The position numbers were made by a program, and so were the translations under genes. Shown here one piece after another: positions 54,539 to 64,000 of a stretch of DNA of 64,000 nucleotides. The first letter of the stretch is position 1. Each line of letters opens with the position of its first letter. The stretch comes from Verrucomicrobiaceae bacterium (lineage in GTDB: Bacteria > Verrucomicrobiota > Verrucomicrobiia > Verrucomicrobiales > Verrucomicrobiaceae), in NCBI GenBank assembly GCA_947458455.1, contig CANGYJ010000010.1:117832-181831 (forward strand), read 5' to 3'. The notes below the pieces were generated by a model. The model worked only from the letters and a program-made list of their open reading frames with translations, did no database searches and was not told the origin of the DNA.

Positions 54539-55078
54539 TTACTTGACGGACTTGCCGGCTTTGCGGCGGATGTATTCGCCGACATAGCGAACGCCTTTGG
54601 CCTTGTAAGGCTCCGGCGGATAGTAGGCGCGGATGTCAGCGGCGAGCTGGCCGACAACTTGCTTGTCGATACCTTCGATGCTGATTTTGGTGTTTTCAGT
54701 GACGGTGACCTTAACGCCCTTCGGAATGGGATGGAGGCGGTCATGGCTCTGGCCGAGCTGGAGATCGATGTTGGTTCCTTTCACGGCAGCGCGGAAACCG
54801 ACGCCGTGAATTTCAAGGTTCCGAGTGTACCCCTGAGAAACGCCAACGATCATGTTCGTGATGAGGCGCTGTGTGGTGCCGTGAAGGGCACGGACGGTGC
54901 GCTCATCGGATTCACGGGTGACACTGAGAGTGCTGGCATCGCCGGTCACAGTCACGCCACGAGGAAGAACCCAGTTGAGTTCGCCCTTAGGGCCTTTGAC
55001 GTTCACATTGCGATCATCACCAACTTTGACGGTGACTTTTTCAGGAAGAGGAATGGGGAGTTTGCCGACGCGGGACAT
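54539..55078 (-). CDS. rplF: 50S ribosomal protein L6
   Basis: 179 aa, two-domain L6: MSRVGKLPIPLPEKVTVKVG, VKGPKGELNWVLPRGVTV, RALHGTTQRLITNMIVGVSQ and the C-terminal signature YPPEPYKAKGVRYVGEYIRR. Sits at the GTPase-associated centre. Standard order after rpsH. Confidence 0.97.
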   Translation of the reverse strand: MSRVGKLPIPLPEKVTVKVGDDRNVNVKGPKGELNWVLPRGVTVTGDASTLSVTRESDERTVRALHGTTQRLITNMIVGVSQGYTRNLEIHGVGFRAAVKGTNIDLQLGQSHDRLHPIPKGVKVTVTENTKISIEGIDKQVVGQLAADIRAYYPPEPYKAKGVRYVGEYIRRKAGKSVK

Positions 55079-55104
55079 GTAGAGATAGGCTCCAGGTTCG
55101 GGGT

Positions 55105-55497
55105 TTACCAGACAAAGGCGAGGAGTTCGCCGCCAAGCTTCGATTTGCGAGCGCGGGAACCTGTCATAACGCCCTTAGAGGTCGAAAGGATGGCAATGCC
55201 GAGGCCACCGAGTACGCGGGGGATCTCGTCACAGGAGACATACTTTCGAAGGCCAGGCTTGGAGACGCGCTGAAGCTTGCGGATAACCGGTGTGGTATCG
55301 TCTGTGTATTTGAGTTTCAGTTTGAGCCGGGGATGAGCGGCGCTGGTATCCACTTCGTAAGCCCAGATGTAACCTTCTTCTTTGAGGATTCGGGCGAGTT
55401 CAGCCTTCATTTTAGAGAAGGGTGCGAGGATCTGCTCCTGGCCGGCGGAAAGGCCATTGCGGATACGGGTGAGAAAATCAGAAATCGGGTCAGTCAT
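55105..55497 (-). CDS. rpsH: 30S ribosomal protein S8
   Basis: 130 aa: MTDPISDFLTRIRNGLSAGQ, LKYTDDTTPVIRKLQRVSKP and the C-terminal GLGIAILSTSKGVMTGSRAR. Binds 16S rRNA helix 21 and in enteric bacteria represses the spc operon. It follows rplE by 37 bp; rpsN (S14), which usually lies between them, is absent. Confidence 0.97.
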   Translation of the reverse strand: MTDPISDFLTRIRNGLSAGQEQILAPFSKMKAELARILKEEGYIWAYEVDTSAAHPRLKLKLKYTDDTTPVIRKLQRVSKPGLRKYVSCDEIPRVLGGLGIAILSTSKGVMTGSRARKSKLGGELLAFVW

Positions 55498-55534
55498 GAC
55501 GTGGCGGTGGGTCCGTGGTGTTTAAAATTCAGGA

Positions 55535-56125
55535 TCAGGCTGCCTGGGCACCTTCTGCGGCGGCATCATCGCTCTTTTTCTTACCCATGGAGCGGAAGGG
55601 CATTCCCAAGGCACGTAGCATTTCGCGAGCATGGTCGTCATTGGTGGTGCTGGTGACGAAGGTGATGTCAAAGCCGAGCGTGCGCTTGATCTTATCGAGT
55701 TCGATTTCGGGGAAGATGGACTGATCGCTGATGCCGAGGGTGTAGTTGCCACGACCATCAAAAGCACGAGGAGCGACGCCGCGGAAGTCACGCACACGGG
55801 GGACAGCAGTGCGAACGAGACGCATCATGAAGTCGTACATCTTGTTGCCACGAAGGGTGACTTTCACACCGACGTTTTCACCCTCGCGGAGTTTGAAGTT
55901 GGCGATGGCCTTCTTCGACTTGGTGATGATGGGCTTCTGACCAGTGATGAGCTGAACTTCGTTCACAGCATCTTCGATGGCCTGCTTACGCTCTCCCTGG
56001 CTGCCGACGGAGCAGTTCAGGACGATTTTTTCAAGCTTGGGCACTTCGTGAATGTTTTCGAGACCGAGATGGCTCTTCAATTCACTGACTTTTTCTTTAT
56101 AGAGGGTTTTGAGGGCGGGTTCCAT
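55535..56125 (-). CDS. rplE: 50S ribosomal protein L5
   Basis: 196 aa: [72 protein letters not shown] and [20 protein letters not shown]. Contacts 5S rRNA and P-site tRNA. Ends with a short Lys/Asp/Ala tail ([15 protein letters not shown]). About 100 bp separate it from rplX, more than between the other genes of the cluster. Confidence 0.97.
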
Positions 56126-56227
56126 GAATCAGTTTCGGGCTGTGCGTCCTTTCCGCCGTGGTCTGCTTATCAAAGCAAAGCTTGTTGCGGCGGGGGAGGC
56201 AAAAATGGGGGGCGTGAGGATGGCGTC

Positions 56228-56509
56228 TTACTTCTTTTTAGCAACTGCCTTTTTCTTCGCAGGAGCCTTCTTTTCTTTTTTTGGTGCGTCAGCAAGCTTT
56301 ACATTGGAGATAGCAATGGGCGCTTCCTTCTCAACATGGCCACCAGCTTGGTTCTGCTGGGTAGGCTTGACGGCCTTTTTGATCATGTTCACCCCCTCAA
56401 CGAGGACGCGGCCTTTGGCCGGAAGAACTTGGAGCACCGTGCCCTGCTTACCTTTGCTAGCGCCTGTGATGACGGTGACAGTATCACCTTTTTTGACGTG
56501 GGTTTTCAT
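56228..56509 (-). CDS. rplX: 50S ribosomal protein L24
   Basis: 93 aa. KOW motif part [20 protein letters not shown] and [20 protein letters not shown] identify L24, an assembly initiator. The last 20 residues are a basic Lys/Ala tail ([12 protein letters not shown]) beyond a slightly shortened core. Confidence 0.95.
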
Positions 56510-56518
56510 GTTTGTAAA

Positions 56519-56887
56519 TCAGAGCACTTCAGGTGCAAGGGAAACGATCTTCATGAAGTTCTTGTCGCGCAGCTCACGAGCGACGGGGCCGAAGATACGA
56601 GTGCCCTTTGGGTTGTTGTCCTTGTCGATCACGACGATGGCATTCTTGTCAAAGCGGAGGATAGAGCCGTCATTGCGGCGGATCGGATGCGCAGTGCGCA
56701 CCACAACGGCGCGGATGACTTCACCTTTTTTCACTGCCGCAGTCGGGGTCGATTCACGAACGTGAGCCGTGATAATATCGCCAACGTAGGCGAAACGAGT
56801 GTTTTTCTTGCCGAGCACGCCGATCATCTCGGCCATGCGAGCGCCGGTGTTGTCAGCGATCGGGATTTCGGATTCCATTTGAAGCAT
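56519..56887 (-). CDS. rplN: 50S ribosomal protein L14
   Basis: 122 aa: [60 protein letters not shown] and [20 protein letters not shown]. Standard length; part of the subunit interface. Confidence 0.97.
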
Positions 56888-56932
56888 AAGTCGATTCCTC
56901 CGTGGGTCTGGGGTTCTTGAAAAGGGGCGTTA

Positions 56933-57214
56933 TTAGTGCTTGAGGACCTCAGTGAGGTTCCAGCGCTTGAGCTTGGAAAGCGGGCGGGTCTCGGCGATGA
57001 GCACCTTGTCCCCCTCCTTGGCTTCGCTTTTCTCGTCGTGAGCGTAGAACTTGGAAGTCTTACGAACGATCTTTTTGAAGCGGGGATGCGGCACGCGGCG
57101 CTCGACTTCAACGACAATGGTTTTAACCATTTTGGCAGAAGTGACAACTCCGACGCGTGTCTTCTGCACGGTCTTCTTTTCAGTGGGGGCGGATGTAGTG
57201 GCGGCCTCGCTCAT
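56933..57214 (-). CDS. rpsQ: 30S ribosomal protein S17
   Basis: 93 aa. Core [40 protein letters not shown] and [20 protein letters not shown]. The first 18 residues ([18 protein letters not shown]) are an added low-complexity leader. Standard place between rpmC and rplN. Confidence 0.96.
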
Positions 57215-57246
57215 GTGTAACGTAATAAAAGGGTTGGTGCGGAGGA

Positions 57247-57459
57247 TTAAGCGGCCTTCTTGATGACGGCAGCGCGGGAACGCTCGGTGATGATGGTCTC
57301 GATGCGCGCGATCTCCTTGCGGATCAGAGTGATACGGGCTGGATTTTCAAGCTGGCCACTCTGCTGGGAGATGCGCAGGTTAAGAGCCTCTTGCTTCAGC
57401 TCGCGGCGGCGAGCGGAAAGTTCTTCGACGCTGGATTCACGGAGTTCTTTGATCTTCAT
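57247..57459 (-). CDS. rpmC: 50S ribosomal protein L29
   Basis: 70 aa helical hairpin: [40 protein letters not shown] and [17 protein letters not shown]. Lies near the peptide exit tunnel, docking site of SRP and trigger factor. Confidence 0.95.
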
Positions 57460-57498
57460 GGGGCGGTTCTCGGTTCGCGGTTCTAGGTTCTCCGAAGG

Positions 57499-57921
57499 TT
57501 ATTTGTGCAGGGACTCACGGGTGACGAAGCGGCTGCGGATGCCAATCTTGTTGGCGGCTAGACGACAGGCTTCGCGGGCGGTGGCTTCATTGACGCCGGA
57601 GATTTCAAACATCATGTGTCCAGGAAGAACAACAGCCACCCAGAATTCGGGAGCGCCTTTACCTTTACCCATTCGGACTTCCGGCGGGCGCTGGGTGACA
57701 GGCTTGTGAGGGAAGATGCGGATGAAAACCTTACCTTTTCGCTTGAGGAAGCGGGTGAGCGCCACACGGCAGGCTTCGATCTGGTTGTTTCTGATCCAGC
57801 CGCGGTCAAGGAGCTGAAGGCCGAAGTCACCAAAGTCGAGCTTGTTGCCGCTGGTGGCATTGCCACTGCGATTGCCGCGCTGCTGCTTTCTGTATTTGGT
57901 TCTGCTGGGGAGGAGGGCCAT
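57499..57921 (-). CDS. rplP: 50S ribosomal protein L16
   Basis: 140 aa: MALLPSRTKYRKQQRGNRSG, GDFGLQLLDRGWIRNNQIEA, KVFIRIFPHKPVTQRPPEVR, MGKGKGAPEFWVAVV and PGHMMFEISGVNEATAREAC. The arginine of the RMGKGKG loop hydroxylated by RoxA in E. coli is present. Confidence 0.97.
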   Translation of the reverse strand: MALLPSRTKYRKQQRGNRSGNATSGNKLDFGDFGLQLLDRGWIRNNQIEACRVALTRFLKRKGKVFIRIFPHKPVTQRPPEVRMGKGKGAPEFWVAVVLPGHMMFEISGVNEATAREACRLAANKIGIRSRFVTRESLHK

Positions 57922-57959
57922 GACGGTCTAATTTGAAAGGTGAAAAGGGATGTTTGAAA

Positions 57960-58742
57960 TCACGCAGCGGCAGGGGCCTCGGCGGGAGCGGCAGCAGGGG
58001 CACCTTCGCCCATGGGGCGGCGGGCACGTCCACCACGAGGAGCGGCACCACCAGGACCACCACCGTCGTTACGATCGCGACGAGGGCGACGTTCTTCACG
58101 CGGACGGGAATTCTCAGGAGCATTGCCACGGTTCATCCAGACTTTGCAGCCGATGATACCATAAACTGTGCGAGCTTCGGCGAAGCCATAATCAATCGGG
58201 ATACGCAAGGTTTGAAGAGGCACTTTGCCTTGACGATACCACTCAGCACGAGCGATGTCAGCACCACCGAGACGACCTGCGACGCGGATACGAATGCCTT
58301 CGGCACCCATGTCCATGGCGGTCTGCACGGCGCGCTTCATGGCGCGGCGGAAGGAAATACGACGCTCAAGTTGCACGGTGACGGCTTCAGCGACGAGCTG
58401 GGCATCAAGCTCAGGCTGCTTGATCTCAAAGATATCGATCTTTACCTGACGACCACCGCACATTTCGGAGATCTTCTGGCTCATCACTTCAATTTCTTGA
58501 CCTTTACGACCAATCACGAGGCCCGGACGAGCGGTATGAAGAGTAACACGAACTTGATTCCAAGCGCGCTCGATCACGATCTTAGCCAAGGCTGCCTGCA
58601 TGAGCTTTTCCTTGAGATAGTTGCGGATGGCGATGTCACTGTGAAGAGAATCGGCGAACTCTTTTTTCGGAGCATACCACTTGGAGCGCCAGTCTTTGGA
58701 GACGGCGAGGCGGAAACCGATTGGATTGACTTTCTGGCCCAT
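57960..58742 (-). CDS. rpsC: 30S ribosomal protein S3
   Basis: 260 aa: MGQKVNPIGFRLAVSKDWRS, KH domain with GLVIGRKGQEIEVMSQKISE, RRISFRRAMKRAVQTAMDMG, GRLGGADIARAEWYRQGKVP and IDYGFAEARTVYGIIGCKVW. The C-terminal 50 residues are a disordered Arg/Gly/Pro/Ala tail with repeats of the kind RRPRRDR and PAAAPAEAPAAA. Confidence 0.97.
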   Translation of the reverse strand: MGQKVNPIGFRLAVSKDWRSKWYAPKKEFADSLHSDIAIRNYLKEKLMQAALAKIVIERAWNQVRVTLHTARPGLVIGRKGQEIEVMSQKISEMCGGRQVKIDIFEIKQPELDAQLVAEAVTVQLERRISFRRAMKRAVQTAMDMGAEGIRIRVAGRLGGADIARAEWYRQGKVPLQTLRIPIDYGFAEARTVYGIIGCKVWMNRGNAPENSRPREERRPRRDRNDGGGPGGAAPRGGRARRPMGEGAPAAAPAEAPAAA

Positions 58743-58777
58743 AAGGTGCGTATCGAGGTGTTAAGTGACGAAAGGTT

Positions 58778-59191
58778 TTATTCAGCAGATTTCTTGGCGG
58801 CCATCTTTTTGGCTGGCCGTGAGGCCTTCTCTGGCTTGGCCTCTTCTTCTGGTTTGGCACCGATGATGACGGTGATGTGGGACATACGCTTCTTGATGGA
58901 AGCGCCTGAGCCACGAGCACGAGGCATGAAGCGGGAAAGAGCAGGTCCAGGAGTAGCGACGGCGCTGGTGACGATCATTTCAGAAGCGTCGAGTTCGTGA
59001 TTGTTTTCGGCATTGGCGATGGCACTACGGAGGGCTTTACCGACTAGAAAAGCACCTTTCTTCGGAGTGAAATCAAGGACGCTCAGGGCTTGGCTCACGG
59101 GCATGCCAGTGATGGCGCGGGTGACCTGGCGGGCCTTCTGCGGAGAGATCCGGGCATACTTGTATGTGGAGCGGACGGTGGGGGCTGACAT
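58778..59191 (-). CDS. rplV: 50S ribosomal protein L22
   Basis: 137 aa: YKYARISPQKARQVTRAITG, GMPVSQALSVLDFTPKKGAF, KALRSAIANAENNHELDASE and the tunnel loop PALSRFMPRARGSGASIKKR. A Lys/Glu/Ala tail (about 25 residues) follows the conserved end. In transcription order it comes after the exported coiled-coil gene instead of directly after rpsS. Confidence 0.96.
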   Translation of the reverse strand: MSAPTVRSTYKYARISPQKARQVTRAITGMPVSQALSVLDFTPKKGAFLVGKALRSAIANAENNHELDASEMIVTSAVATPGPALSRFMPRARGSGASIKKRMSHITVIIGAKPEEEAKPEKASRPAKKMAAKKSAE

Positions 59192-59227
59192 AACTTGGAG
59201 AGGCTTCTTCGTGTGCAGGGTGGGTTT

Positions 59228-60016
59228 TTAAAAAGAGGAGGCGGTGGTCTCGGCTCGGCCACGATCACCGACACGGACGGGGTCCATGTTGTCGGCGAGT
59301 TCTTGGACGATAGCACCGCTGACAGACTGGCGGACTTCAGTGATGAGCACTTTAGCGAGAGGCTTATCTTCGCGGAAGATTTCAAAGGGCATGCCAGGCT
59401 TCACGCCGTCTTTACGGCCAAGGCTGAGGACGGCAATGCCGAGTTCGGGTTTTAAAGAAACGACACGAGCATTTTGTAGACCGTCAGAAGGAGCGCCATC
59501 CACGGGGGCCGTGGTTCCGATCTTACTCAGCAGCCCATCTGCGGCAGTGAGGGTTTGGTTCAGAGTATCAGCGGCAGCCGGATCGGCATTGGGTGCGGAA
59601 CGAGCGAGGTTCACACTGGCTTCCGCCACCACCATAAGAGATTGGGCAAGTTCGTCACGCTGCTGCTTCACGATACGAAGATCGCTCAGCGCAGCGAGGA
59701 GACGCTCCTGCGCTTGATCCTTGGAGCTTTCGAGGGCGGATATGCCCAAACCTTCGAGTAAGCCACGGAGTTTCTCATAGCGGTCTTTGAGCTCACCCGC
59801 TTCGTTGTTTGCCGCAGCAGCGGATTGAGCGAGAGCATCGAATTTATCCTTGGATGCGGCAGCATCGGTTTCGAGCTTCTGAATCTTACGAGCAGCCACG
59901 GCGAGCGTGGTGTGCAATTCACGAAGTTCGAGATTCACATCACTCTGAGCACGCACGACACCGCCCACTGCCAGAAGCAGTGCTAAAGTGTAGCGTGCGT
60001 GCGAAAAGAGAGACAT
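59228..60016 (-). CDS. Exported coiled-coil protein inserted in the S10 operon
   Basis: 262 aa, not a ribosomal protein. Signal peptide MSLFSHARYTLALLLAVGGV (cleavage near VRAQS), then heptad-rich helices from about 26 to 145 (coiled coil; LHTTLAVAARKIQKLETDAA), a linker, and a C-terminal beta domain (about 180-255) with VVSLKPELGIAVLSLGRKDG, KPGMPFEIFREDKPLAKVLI and VRVGDRGR. That end resembles the FlgT-C/MreC-like beta domain found in exported verrucomicrobial and planctomycetal proteins. It lies 23 bp after rpsS and 36 bp before rplV on the same strand, so it should be transcribed at ribosomal-protein levels. Probably an abundant envelope protein; function unknown. Confidence 0.9.
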   Translation of the reverse strand: MSLFSHARYTLALLLAVGGVVRAQSDVNLELRELHTTLAVAARKIQKLETDAAASKDKFDALAQSAAAANNEAGELKDRYEKLRGLLEGLGISALESSKDQAQERLLAALSDLRIVKQQRDELAQSLMVVAEASVNLARSAPNADPAAADTLNQTLTAADGLLSKIGTTAPVDGAPSDGLQNARVVSLKPELGIAVLSLGRKDGVKPGMPFEIFREDKPLAKVLITEVRQSVSGAIVQELADNMDPVRVGDRGRAETTASSF

Positions 60017-60039
60017 GACCTAGGAGAACAAAAAGAAGA

Positions 60040-60321
60040 TTACTTAGCAGCCTTGACGGTGACAGCACCGTGGGATTTGAACATACGAGTGAGGGCAAAT
60101 TCGCCGAGGCGATGGCCGACCATGTTTTCGGTCGCATAGACGGAGACGAAGTCTTTCCCGTTATGAACTAGGAAGGTGTGGCCGACGAGATCGGGCGTGA
60201 TCATGGAGGAGCGAGCCCAGGTCTTGATGGGGCGCTTGCCGCCTTTAGACTCATTCATCTTGTCCACCTTATCGAGGAGGGCTTGTTGAATGAAGGGGCC
60301 TTTTTTCAGGGAACGTGCCAT
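60040..60321 (-). CDS. rpsS: 30S ribosomal protein S19
   Basis: 93 aa: [60 protein letters not shown] and [17 protein letters not shown]. Standard length, at the head of the 30S. Followed by the non-ribosomal exported protein gene. Confidence 0.97.
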
Positions 60322-60348
60322 AAGAAAATTCGTTGAGTCAAAAATGGG

Positions 60349-61185
60349 TTACTTGCCTTTGCGATGCTGGACGATGAGCTTGCCAGTGGCCTTCTTCTTA
60401 TTGCGAGTCTTCTCACCCTTGGCATGCCCCCAGGGGCTGAGAAGGTGCTGGCGACCACCACCAGACTTGGAACGACCTTCACCACCACCGTTTGGATGGT
60501 CGATGGGGTTCATGCACATACCACGCACTGTCGGGCGGACGCCCTGCCAGCGTGTGCGGCCAGCCTTGCCGGAAACCACATTCATGTGCTCGATATTGCC
60601 GACCTGACCGATCGTGGCGTAGCACACAGAGAGGATCTTGCGGATTTCACCGGAAGGCATACGCACGAGGGCATATTCACCTTCTCGGTTATTCAAAACG
60701 GCAGCCTGACCAGCGGCACGGGCAGCAACACCACCACGTCCAGGAACGAGTTCGATATTGTGAATGCTCATCCCGAGTGGGATCTTCGCCAAAGGAAGGG
60801 CATTTCCCACTTCAGGAGCGGCATTTTCACCAGCCATAACGCTAGAACCAAGCTGGAGCTGGGCAGGAGCGAGGATGTAGGCACGCTCACCATCCTTATA
60901 CTCGACGAGAGCAATGCGTGCCGAACGATTCGGATCATACTCGATGCCGATGACTTTGGCGCCTTCATTACGGCGGAGACGCTTGAAGTCGATCAGGCGG
61001 TAACGCTTGTCGTGACCACCGCCGATATGACGGCAGGTGATGCGGCCCGTGTTGTTACGGCCACCACTGCGGCGGAGAGCGACGGTGAGGCTCTTCTCCG
61101 GCGTATCCTTGGTGATCTCGTCGAATGAGTTCCACTCCTTGTAGCGGTTGGATGGGGTTTGGGGCTTGAATGTTTTCAGCGCCAT
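60349..61185 (-). CDS. rplB: 50S ribosomal protein L2
   Basis: 278 aa: [72 protein letters not shown] and the peptidyl-transferase-centre motif [20 protein letters not shown] with its key histidine. Standard length. Confidence 0.97.
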
Positions 61186-61226
61186 GGTCGTGTAAGGGTA
61201 AAGGGTTGCCTAGAAGGGGCGGAGGA

Positions 61227-61511
61227 TCATGCAAGGTCGAGCTTTTCGCCAGCTTTCAAGCGGACGACAGCCTTTTTCCAATGGTTGGTGCGGCCATAAT
61301 CGGCGCGGCGTTCGCGCTTGGCCTTGCCAGAAACATTCAGGGTGCGGACGCCATCGACTTTCTTGCCGAAGAGCTTTTCTACAGCCTGCTTGATATCAAT
61401 CTTCGTAGCCTGGGGATCGACGCGGAAGACGTATTCGTTGTTTTTTTCGCCGAGAAGCGTGGCTTTCTCGGTGAGGCGGATGGTCTGAATCACTTTGTGA
61501 AGGTCTCTCAT
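61227..61511 (-). CDS. rplW: 50S ribosomal protein L23
   Basis: 94 aa from ATG 61511 (MRDLHKVIQTIRLTEKATLL); the frame extends upstream into rplD in another register. Core EYVFRVDPQATKIDIKQAVE and KVDGVRTLNVSGKAKRERRA identify L23 at the tunnel exit. Its start follows the rplD stop by one base. Confidence 0.95.
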   Translation of the reverse strand: MRDLHKVIQTIRLTEKATLLGEKNNEYVFRVDPQATKIDIKQAVEKLFGKKVDGVRTLNVSGKAKRERRADYGRTNHWKKAVVRLKAGEKLDLA

Positions 61512-61512
61512 A

Positions 61513-62121
61513 TCAGGCGGTCCTCTGGGCAAGGGTTTGGAGGGCGTCACCGGCCACAACGATGGCCTGGTAGCGAAGAAGATTCTCAGCATTCACATCA
61601 CTGGCGGCCATGAGCTGGACGTTCTGGACGTTGCGAGCGGCGCGGAAAGTGATCTCGTCGAATTTATTGCCAAGCAGGAGCACATTCTTGGCGGTCGAGA
61701 GGTTGCTCACGGCGGAGATGAATGACTTGGTCTTTCCATCGGTGATGGCGAACTCACCCACCGTAAGGACTGCACCATCATTGATGCGAGCGGTCAAAGC
61801 GGCACGAAGGGCCAGCTTTTTAACGTTCTTGAGGGTCTTCTTGGAGTAGTCGCGAGGGCGAGGACCAAAGACAACACCACCACCACTCCAGATTGGAGAG
61901 CGCTTCGAACCCATACGGGCATTACCCGTACCTTTTTGATTCCAGAGCTTCTTGCCGGAGCCGGAGACTTCGGAGCGGTTTTTGGTGCAGGCGGTTCCCT
62001 GACGGCGGTTCGCCCGGTAGGCGACAACGGTTTCGTGCAGGGCCTGAGAGCCTTGATGACCTTCGGTGAGGTTGATTTGGGCCGCTTTGGCGGCATCGGC
62101 AGTGAGAACTTGGGCGGACAT
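61513..62121 (-). CDS. rplD: 50S ribosomal protein L4
   Basis: 202 aa: tunnel loop GSGKKLWNQKGTGNARMGSK and SPIWSGGGVVFGPRPRDYSK, then KVKKLALRAALTARINDG-like helix and LLRYQAIVVAGDALQTL. In E. coli L4 also represses its own S10 operon; no matching leader is assessable here. Confidence 0.96.
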   Translation of the reverse strand: MSAQVLTADAAKAAQINLTEGHQGSQALHETVVAYRANRRQGTACTKNRSEVSGSGKKLWNQKGTGNARMGSKRSPIWSGGGVVFGPRPRDYSKKTLKNVKKLALRAALTARINDGAVLTVGEFAITDGKTKSFISAVSNLSTAKNVLLLGNKFDEITFRAARNVQNVQLMAASDVNAENLLRYQAIVVAGDALQTLAQRTA

Positions 62122-62141
62122 GATTCAGTTCCTCGGGGTGA

Positions 62142-62786
62142 TTATTTAGCGACAGCTTTTTTGCCGGGGCGCACCACGACGATGCTGCCTTTGTTACCGG
62201 GGACGGAGCCTTTGATGAACAGCAGGCCCTCTTCAGGACGGCTCTGCACGACGACGAGATTTTGCGTGGTGCGACGATCCACACCATCGTGGCCGGGCAT
62301 TTTCTGGTTCTTCCAGACGAGACCTGGGGTAAGGCGGCAACCAATGGAGCCAGGGCGGCGATGCATCATGGAACCGTGCGACTGAGGCTGACCGGCAAAG
62401 TTCCAGCGTTTCACGACGCCCTGGAAGCCTTTGCCCTTCGTGGTGCCGATGACATCAACAATTTGACCATTGGTGAAGAGGCTGGCGTCATATTTAGCAT
62501 CCGCTGCGGGAAGCTGGTCATCTCCTGTGAGACGGAATTCCTTCACGATCTTCTTCGCGGTGGAGCCGTGCTTCTTGAAATGGCCCATGAGGGGCTTCGT
62601 GATGCGGAATTCCTTCTGCTCACCGTAGCCGACCTGCACGGCGGTATAGCCGTCCTTGCCGTCGCTGCGCTTAACCTGGATGATTTTGTTTCCGCTGACG
62701 TCCACGACGGTCACGGCGACTGCTTCGCCCTTGTCCGTGTACACTTTCGTCATGCCGAGTTTTTTGCCGATTAGTCCGAGACTCAT
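62142..62786 (-). CDS. rplC: 50S ribosomal protein L3
   Basis: 214 aa: MSLGLIGKKLGMTKVYTDKG, DVIGTTKGKGFQGVVKRWNF, AGQPQSHGSMMHRRPGSIGC and KMPGHDGVDRRTTQNLVVVQ. Standard L3; the residue methylated by PrmB in E. coli (Gln) is in the MPGH-proximal loop region but not confidently aligned. Confidence 0.96.
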   Translation of the reverse strand: MSLGLIGKKLGMTKVYTDKGEAVAVTVVDVSGNKIIQVKRSDGKDGYTAVQVGYGEQKEFRITKPLMGHFKKHGSTAKKIVKEFRLTGDDQLPAADAKYDASLFTNGQIVDVIGTTKGKGFQGVVKRWNFAGQPQSHGSMMHRRPGSIGCRLTPGLVWKNQKMPGHDGVDRRTTQNLVVVQSRPEEGLLFIKGSVPGNKGSIVVVRPGKKAVAK

Positions 62787-62834
62787 ATGGTTATCTCCGT
62801 GGGGATGATTTTTGGGGGGTTCTCGTGGTGAAAA

Positions 62835-63143
62835 TTAGATACGGATCGTGATGTCCACACCGGAGGGAAGATTGAGCTTCTTCAGCTCGTCCACGGTGCG
62901 AGCGGTCGGATCGACGATGTCGAGGAGACGCTTGTGAGTGCGCAGCTCAAACTGGTCCATCGACTTTTTGTCCACGTGGGGAGAGCGATTAACGGTGAAC
63001 TTCTCGATGCGGGTGGGCAGCGGGATAGGACCCGCGACACGGGCCCCAGTGCGCTTGGCAGTTTCGACGATGTCCGCAGTGCTCTTATCGAGTGTGCGAT
63101 AGTCGTAGGCGCGGAGTCGGATACGGATGCGCTGGTTACTCAT
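62835..63143 (-). CDS. rpsJ: 30S ribosomal protein S10
   Basis: 102 aa from ATG 63143 ([20 protein letters not shown]); the longer frame upstream is unrelated to the family. Signature [20 protein letters not shown] and [20 protein letters not shown], ending SGVDITIRI. Forms the NusE transcription-antitermination surface as well as part of the 30S. It directly follows fusA (44 bp), with no tuf gene between. Confidence 0.97.
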
Positions 63144-63186
63144 GACGATTCTTCTTGGGTAAAGGGGGTTCAGTGAGGGATGAAGA

Positions 63187-64000
63187 TCAGGATTTGCTGC
63201 CGCCGCGTTGCTCGACGATCTGCTCGACGATCTGCTGGGGAACCTGCTCAAAGTGCGAGGGCTGCATGCTATAGCTAGCACGTCCGGAGGAAAGGGTGCG
63301 GATGGCGGTGGAATAACCGAACATCTCAGCGAGGGGGACCTCTGCACGAAGAACAGCAGTGGCACCGCGCATGTCCATCCCCTGAATCTTACCACGGCGG
63401 CGGTTCAAGTCACCGAGGATGTCACCTTGATAGTCTTCTGGTGTGGAGGCTTCTACGGCCATGATAGGCTCAAGGAGGATGCACTTCGCTTTCTTGAGAG
63501 CGTCTTTGACCGCGAAGATGCCGGCCATTTTGAAGGCGTTTTCGTTGGAATCGACGTCGTGGCTCGATCCGTCGATTAGCTCAATATGCATGTCGATCAC
63601 CGGATAACCTGCGATGATGCCATTGAGGGCAGCTTCGATACAGCCATTCTTGGCTGGGTTGATGAATTCTTTCGGGATGGTGCCGCCGACGACCTTGTTT
63701 TCGACCACGATGCCGCTGCCTTTTTCACCAGGACGGACGTTGATGACGACGTGGCCATACTGACCACGACCACCGGACTGCTTAACGAGCTTACCTTCGC
63801 CACCAGCTGCCTGGGTGAGAGTCTCACGGTAAGCGATCTGCGGCTTGCCCGTGTTGGTTTCCACCTTGTGCTCGCGCTTGAGGCGGTCGCAGAGAATTTC
63901 GAGATGCAACTCTCCCATGCCGGCGATGATGACCTGACCGGTTTCTTCGTCGGTTTTGACGAAGAAAGTCGGATCTTCTTCCGAGAGGCGCTGAAGTGCA
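63187..64000 (-). CDS. fusA: Elongation factor G, C-terminal part
   Basis: Translocation GTPase; only the 3' part is in the window, about 271 codons, and the G domain lies beyond the right edge. Visible: domain III/IV boundary [60 protein letters not shown], domain V with [34 protein letters not shown] and [20 protein letters not shown]. Ends with a short [12 protein letters not shown] tail. Its place joins the str and S10 gene groups. Confidence 0.97.

Follow-up and report, generated by a model that had tools for sequence, protein, structure and literature searches.

The junction between rpsS and rplV is among the most conserved gene neighbourhoods of bacteria, and in Chlamydia the two genes are adjacent as well. 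Non-ribosomal genes in ribosomal protein operons, such as secY, rpoA, adk and infA, are passengers co-expressed with the ribosome and encode cytoplasmic or translocon parts. The gene described here (from now on referred to as the insert gene) resembles them as a probable passenger but differs in that its product is predicted to be exported and in its location between rpsS and rplV; a literature search, made mostly without subscription papers, found no paper describing an insertion at this site.

For the predicted product the closest described proteins are FlgT of the flagellar H ring, TsaP, which is a periplasmic, secretin-associated LysM protein of type IV pili, and MreC. With FlgT it shares the (predicted) export and, over 76–77 residues with 16% identity, the beta-barrel fold of the C-terminal domain (PF16538), but there is no FlgT N or M domain, residues 24–167 being helical only in the model, and at all loci the gene is situated in the ribosomal operon and not in a flagellar context. 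The likeness to TsaP consists of a weak sequence match of the barrel (residues 187–227, E 0.003) from a profile search of solved structures, in which the better-scoring matches are helical coiled coils, but the insert gene has no pilus gene context and no LysM domain was seen among the Pfam matches of the window protein to E 10. The layout of MreC, an exported protein with a coiled coil followed by a beta domain, is also predicted for the insert protein, but MreC has two barrels instead of one, and the signal peptide of the insert protein is predicted to be cleaved.

The insert gene and its predicted product

The window, i.e. the whole stretch of 64,000 nucleotides from a Verrucomicrobiaceae bacterium that was analysed, contains the following features around the junction.

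54539..63395, minus strand: S10-spc ribosomal protein cluster, rpsJ to rplF, surrounding the insert gene
60040..60321, minus strand: rpsS (S19), neighbour on the upstream side
60017..60039, minus strand: spacer from rpsS to the insert gene, 23 nt
59228..60016, minus strand: insert gene for a predicted exported coiled-coil/beta-barrel protein, 262 codons, ATG start
59192..59227, minus strand: spacer from the insert gene to rplV, 36 nt
58778..59191, minus strand: rplV (L22), downstream neighbour and linked partner across the phylum

The order on the minus strand is rpsJ-rplC-rplD-rplW-rplB-rpsS-[insert]-rplV-rpsC-rplP-rpmC-rpsQ-rplN-rplX-rplE-rpsH-rplF. The two spacers are comparable to the other intergenic gaps of the cluster (9–48 nt, save one of 102 nt), confirming the original prediction of a 262-aa ORF between rpsS and rplV with normal operon spacing, and the genome has one S10-type insert gene. 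Since homologues occupy the same position and dN/dS between close relatives is 0.04–0.08, somewhat above the values of the ribosomal proteins, the ORF is a real gene and a chance ORF was ruled out; as judged from these ratios it is under strong purifying selection.

A scan of 9.8 kb revealed no sigma-70-like promoter near the insert gene on the same strand, the sole consensus match being located within rpsC, while terminator-like matches were at chance level only and a search with Rfam matched no known RNA element. Judged from the shared strand, the short gaps and the absence of a nearby promoter-like site, the insert gene is very likely co-transcribed with rpsS and rplV. In RNA data from Akkermansia muciniphila the whole cluster Amuc_0294-0308 rises together (PMC11480725). 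With the insert gene counted these 15 tags correspond to rpsJ to rplE, which by gene count would make it Amuc_0300, a tag of which no mention was found in the literature (again searched mostly without subscription papers).

The codon adaptation of the insert gene is 0.575, compared to about 0.60–0.77 for the ribosomal proteins, and in several pairs its synonymous divergence exceeds theirs (dS 1.07 vs 0.42–0.56), which together argues for less protein per mRNA than for ribosomal proteins. The proposal of an abundant envelope structural protein made in proportion to ribosomes is conjectural, and the weaker codon adaptation argues against ribosome-level amounts.

In the cluster of the window rpsN (S14) is absent between rplE and rpsH (window 55498–55534), and the only S14 gene of the genome is found at G000:C7:19610-19765. 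The listed rplW ORF shares 80 nt with rplD (window 61513–61592), its real start probably being an internal ATG (MRDLHKVIQ...), and the N-terminal extension of the rpsJ ORF as listed is probably spurious.

Within the insert gene three regions were distinguished.

59948..60016, minus strand: predicted signal peptide, residues 1–23, cleaved between VRA and Q (sequence and hydropathy)
59516..59947, minus strand: helical/coiled-coil region, residues 24–167 (AlphaFold2 model)
59243..59488, minus strand: C-terminal six-stranded beta-barrel, FlgT-C-like, residues 177–258 (model, structural matches and conserved residues)

The N-terminus (MSLFSHARYTLALLLAVGGVVRA, followed by QSDV) contains a hydrophobic core with a mean KD of 2.49, a value reached by 3.5% of shuffles and to be compared with 0.6–1.4 in ribosomal proteins, and the context of the predicted cleavage site is AVGGVVRA before and QS after. 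A hydrophobic N-terminal segment was found in 65/67 family members, and the insert protein is predicted to be Sec-exported with a cleavable signal peptide. The lipobox cysteine of Lpp-type lipoproteins is absent, the window protein having no Cys at all.

The AlphaFold2 model, run on an alignment of 52 sequences (mean pLDDT 88), shows helices at residues 5–94, 99–139 and 146–167 and a beta domain at 183–255, with an uncertain arrangement of helices to barrel because pTM is 0.45. The best structural match of the beta domain is the FlgT C-terminal domain (8z5n, Z 11.2, rmsd 2.3 over 77 residues; 3w1e, Z 10.8, rmsd 1.9 over 76 residues), nearly equalled by the N-terminal barrels of F1-ATPase subunits (Z about 10), and since the same barrel fold forms the F1-ATPase crown the fold by itself names no function. 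The conserved residues of the barrel are G200, G204, G208, R229 and G250.

The window protein scores below the cut-off of every family in Pfam and NCBIfam, and the insert family is an uncharacterised, conserved one with no entry in either. Pfam FlgT_C matches 3/27 members without significance (E 0.053), and the NCBIfam MreC models match at most 3/27 (best E 2e-4), with the window protein below cut-off and no MreC match in its Pfam search. In the Foldseek list MreC appears at E 6e-4 and TM 0.2, a weaker likeness than that of FlgT. Hydropathy, the model and the two Z values agree with a predicted exported protein that combines a coiled coil and a FlgT-like beta domain; where the domain had been called FlgT/MreC-like, the FlgT-C fold is supported and the likeness to MreC is weak, with a single barrel and no match to the MreC family that exceeds the cut-off. 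A separate gene, beside one for an MreB-like protein, encodes an MreC-like protein (G085, L254).

Distribution and history in Verrucomicrobiota

Among 56 relatives screened in Verrucomicrobiales, a strong homologue was found in all 44 with a completeness of at least 90%; four of the 56, which are 74–81% complete, have none and two of these show weak, paralog-like matches only. The order-level set comprised 83 loci, some genomes being taken twice, with records named Prosthecobacter, Brevifollis and Verrucomicrobiaceae among them. Wherever a contig of the order spans both neighbours, the insert gene is flanked by rpsS and rplV and has their orientation, with median spacings of 24 nt on the rpsS side and 25 nt on the rplV side.

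At the level of the phylum, the positions of rpsS, rplV and matches to the insert profile were determined in 241 Verrucomicrobiota genomes, and outside the order 60 loci were sampled, one or more per family from about 40 families (names beyond the named records are assigned by inference). The insert gene is located immediately upstream of rplV at 41 of the 60 loci, 40 of them identified with the order-level profile (A1) and one, G104, recovered with the split-clade profile (A4, 4e-44). The expected presence in other Verrucomicrobiota was thereby found, and confinement to one strain, the condition under which the original prediction was to fall, is excluded by the phylum-wide presence. A recent insertion or mobile element was also ruled out, the gene being phylum-wide and without match in plasmids or phages. 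At 24 of the 40 loci the stop codon overlaps the rplV start or lies within about 10 nt of it, these distances being approximate because the start positions were taken from alignments.

In 19 sampled taxa rpsS is located elsewhere in the genome, and in 18 of these the insert gene is still beside rplV, as the first gene of an rplV-rpsC unit with unrelated genes upstream. On the tree of nine ribosomal proteins these split taxa form one clade (support 0.997), which is probably Kiritimatiellia plus Lentisphaeria; at their loci (L137-L174, e.g. L153, L158 and L174) the break in the S10 cluster falls between rpsS and the insert gene. A short protein of 110–130 aa, consisting of signal peptide and barrel without coiled coil, is found in Opitutales-like families (f7, f9, f13, f14, f16 and f17; the name is tentative), which makes the barrel the core of the family and the coiled coil dispensable for it. 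Profile-profile comparison of the order-level type gave a probability of 99.5 (E 2e-22, 222 columns) with the split-clade type and of 98.4, across the barrel, with the short Opitutales type (A3), and the homology of the most distant members is based on profile scores together with position.

The tree comprised 76 sampled taxa and was rooted with E. coli as single outgroup. The gene-bearing taxa trace back to the ancestor of all 76, which with a single gain requires 10 losses; by Fitch parsimony the presence label changes 10 times, whereas shuffled labels change 18 times on average. One early gain at the base followed by 10 losses is compatible with the tree, and a single origin is preferred, given that the members have site, strand, architecture and subfamily residues in common. 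The losses include f8 (three sampled genomes, apparently Methylacidiphilum-like) and several families related to f19, f26, f42 and f38. Two genomes of 0.9 Mb (G085 and G106), which appear to be Xiphinematobacter-like, lack the gene, and no recognisable remnant was seen in their rpsS-rplV gaps of 139 and 304 nt (L128 and L129). With about 10 lineages having lost it, members of the phylum can live without the insert gene.

Explanations for the position upstream of rplV

The reading preferred here, with a probability of about 0.5, is that the gene is an ancient passenger of the S10 operon, which encodes an exported scaffold protein of the envelope and is transcribed together with rplV, often with translational coupling to it. 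The gene would be transcribed with the ribosomal proteins, and the short or overlapping junctions suggest translational coupling to rplV in many lineages, so that synthesis of the protein would follow growth up and down. In the periplasm the coiled coil may oligomerise and the barrel may dock on a partner in the envelope, be it peptidoglycan, the outer membrane or a ring complex, giving a scaffold or spacer required in step with cell growth. Given its site just before rplV, mostly within the S10 operon, the gene has probably had its expression linked to ribosome production from the origin of the phylum onwards. A more far-reaching version, a phylum-defining, hard-wired link between ribosome and envelope, in which the ancestor put the scaffold gene in the S10 operon and selection kept the coupling to rplV even after the operon broke, is offered tentatively, being judged somewhat doubtful; if it is true, envelope growth tracks ribosome synthesis.

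The protein may also belong to the envelope while the gene stays where it is by historical accident, its co-expression with ribosomes being of no particular significance; a paralog duplicate would have landed before rplV, where excision without harm to essential neighbours is rare. Such a course agrees with a paralog family with the same barrel in the same genomes, with the codon adaptation below that of ribosomal proteins and with the losses as such, but these were clean excisions, often leaving gaps of 0–140 nt, so removal is possible, and the insert gene kept rplV when the operon broke on the other side; it is considered unlikely. The FlgT-C fold and the weak TsaP match would suit an accessory subunit of a secretin, pilus or secretion ring, TsaP- or FlgT-like and highly expressed for that machine, yet the missing LysM and FlgT N/M domains and a location in the ribosomal cluster, away from pilus or flagellar genes, make this improbable. 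Very improbable, finally, is a role in which the product is secondary and a signal peptide translated partway along the S10 mRNA tethers this mRNA with its ribosomes to the membrane, or rplV translation is set by the cistron through coupling: the junction is very short or overlapping in many lineages and the signal or anchor segment is retained even where the coiled coil is lost, but the spacer in the window is 36 nt, and the conservation of the five barrel residues at protein level together with the low dN/dS implies that the protein product matters.

The original interpretation as a whole is thus partly supported. A predicted exported protein kept at the rpsS-rplV junction throughout the phylum, Akkermansia-like gut bacteria included, is a ready group marker, and the general question of whether envelope growth is coupled to ribosome synthesis via operon structure becomes testable in a cultivable host.

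Membrane-anchored paralogs

Away from the ribosomal locus, several genomes of the phylum encode membrane-anchored paralogs that share barrel and general layout with the insert protein and are an uncharacterised family of their own. They differ in a predicted uncleaved anchor, a WNFVVLDIG motif and, mostly, the lack of G208 and R229, two residues that mark the S10-linked type (G208 in 64/67 proteins vs 4/17 paralogs, R229 in 63/67 vs 4/17). Relocation of the insert gene in lineages lacking it was ruled out, as matches elsewhere are mostly such paralogs and not of the S10 type. The paralogs are a possible source of the duplication, and we infer that one was duplicated before the radiation of the phylum and then landed upstream of rplV.

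One paralog of 263 aa, with membrane-anchored coiled coil and FlgT-C-like barrel, is located at L175:5921-6712 and adjoins a neighbour of 387 aa, possibly another of this type, the pair spanning L175:5921-7930 (G000:C8, about 308.9–310.9 kb). Similar pairs were observed in other genomes (L176, L178 and L243).
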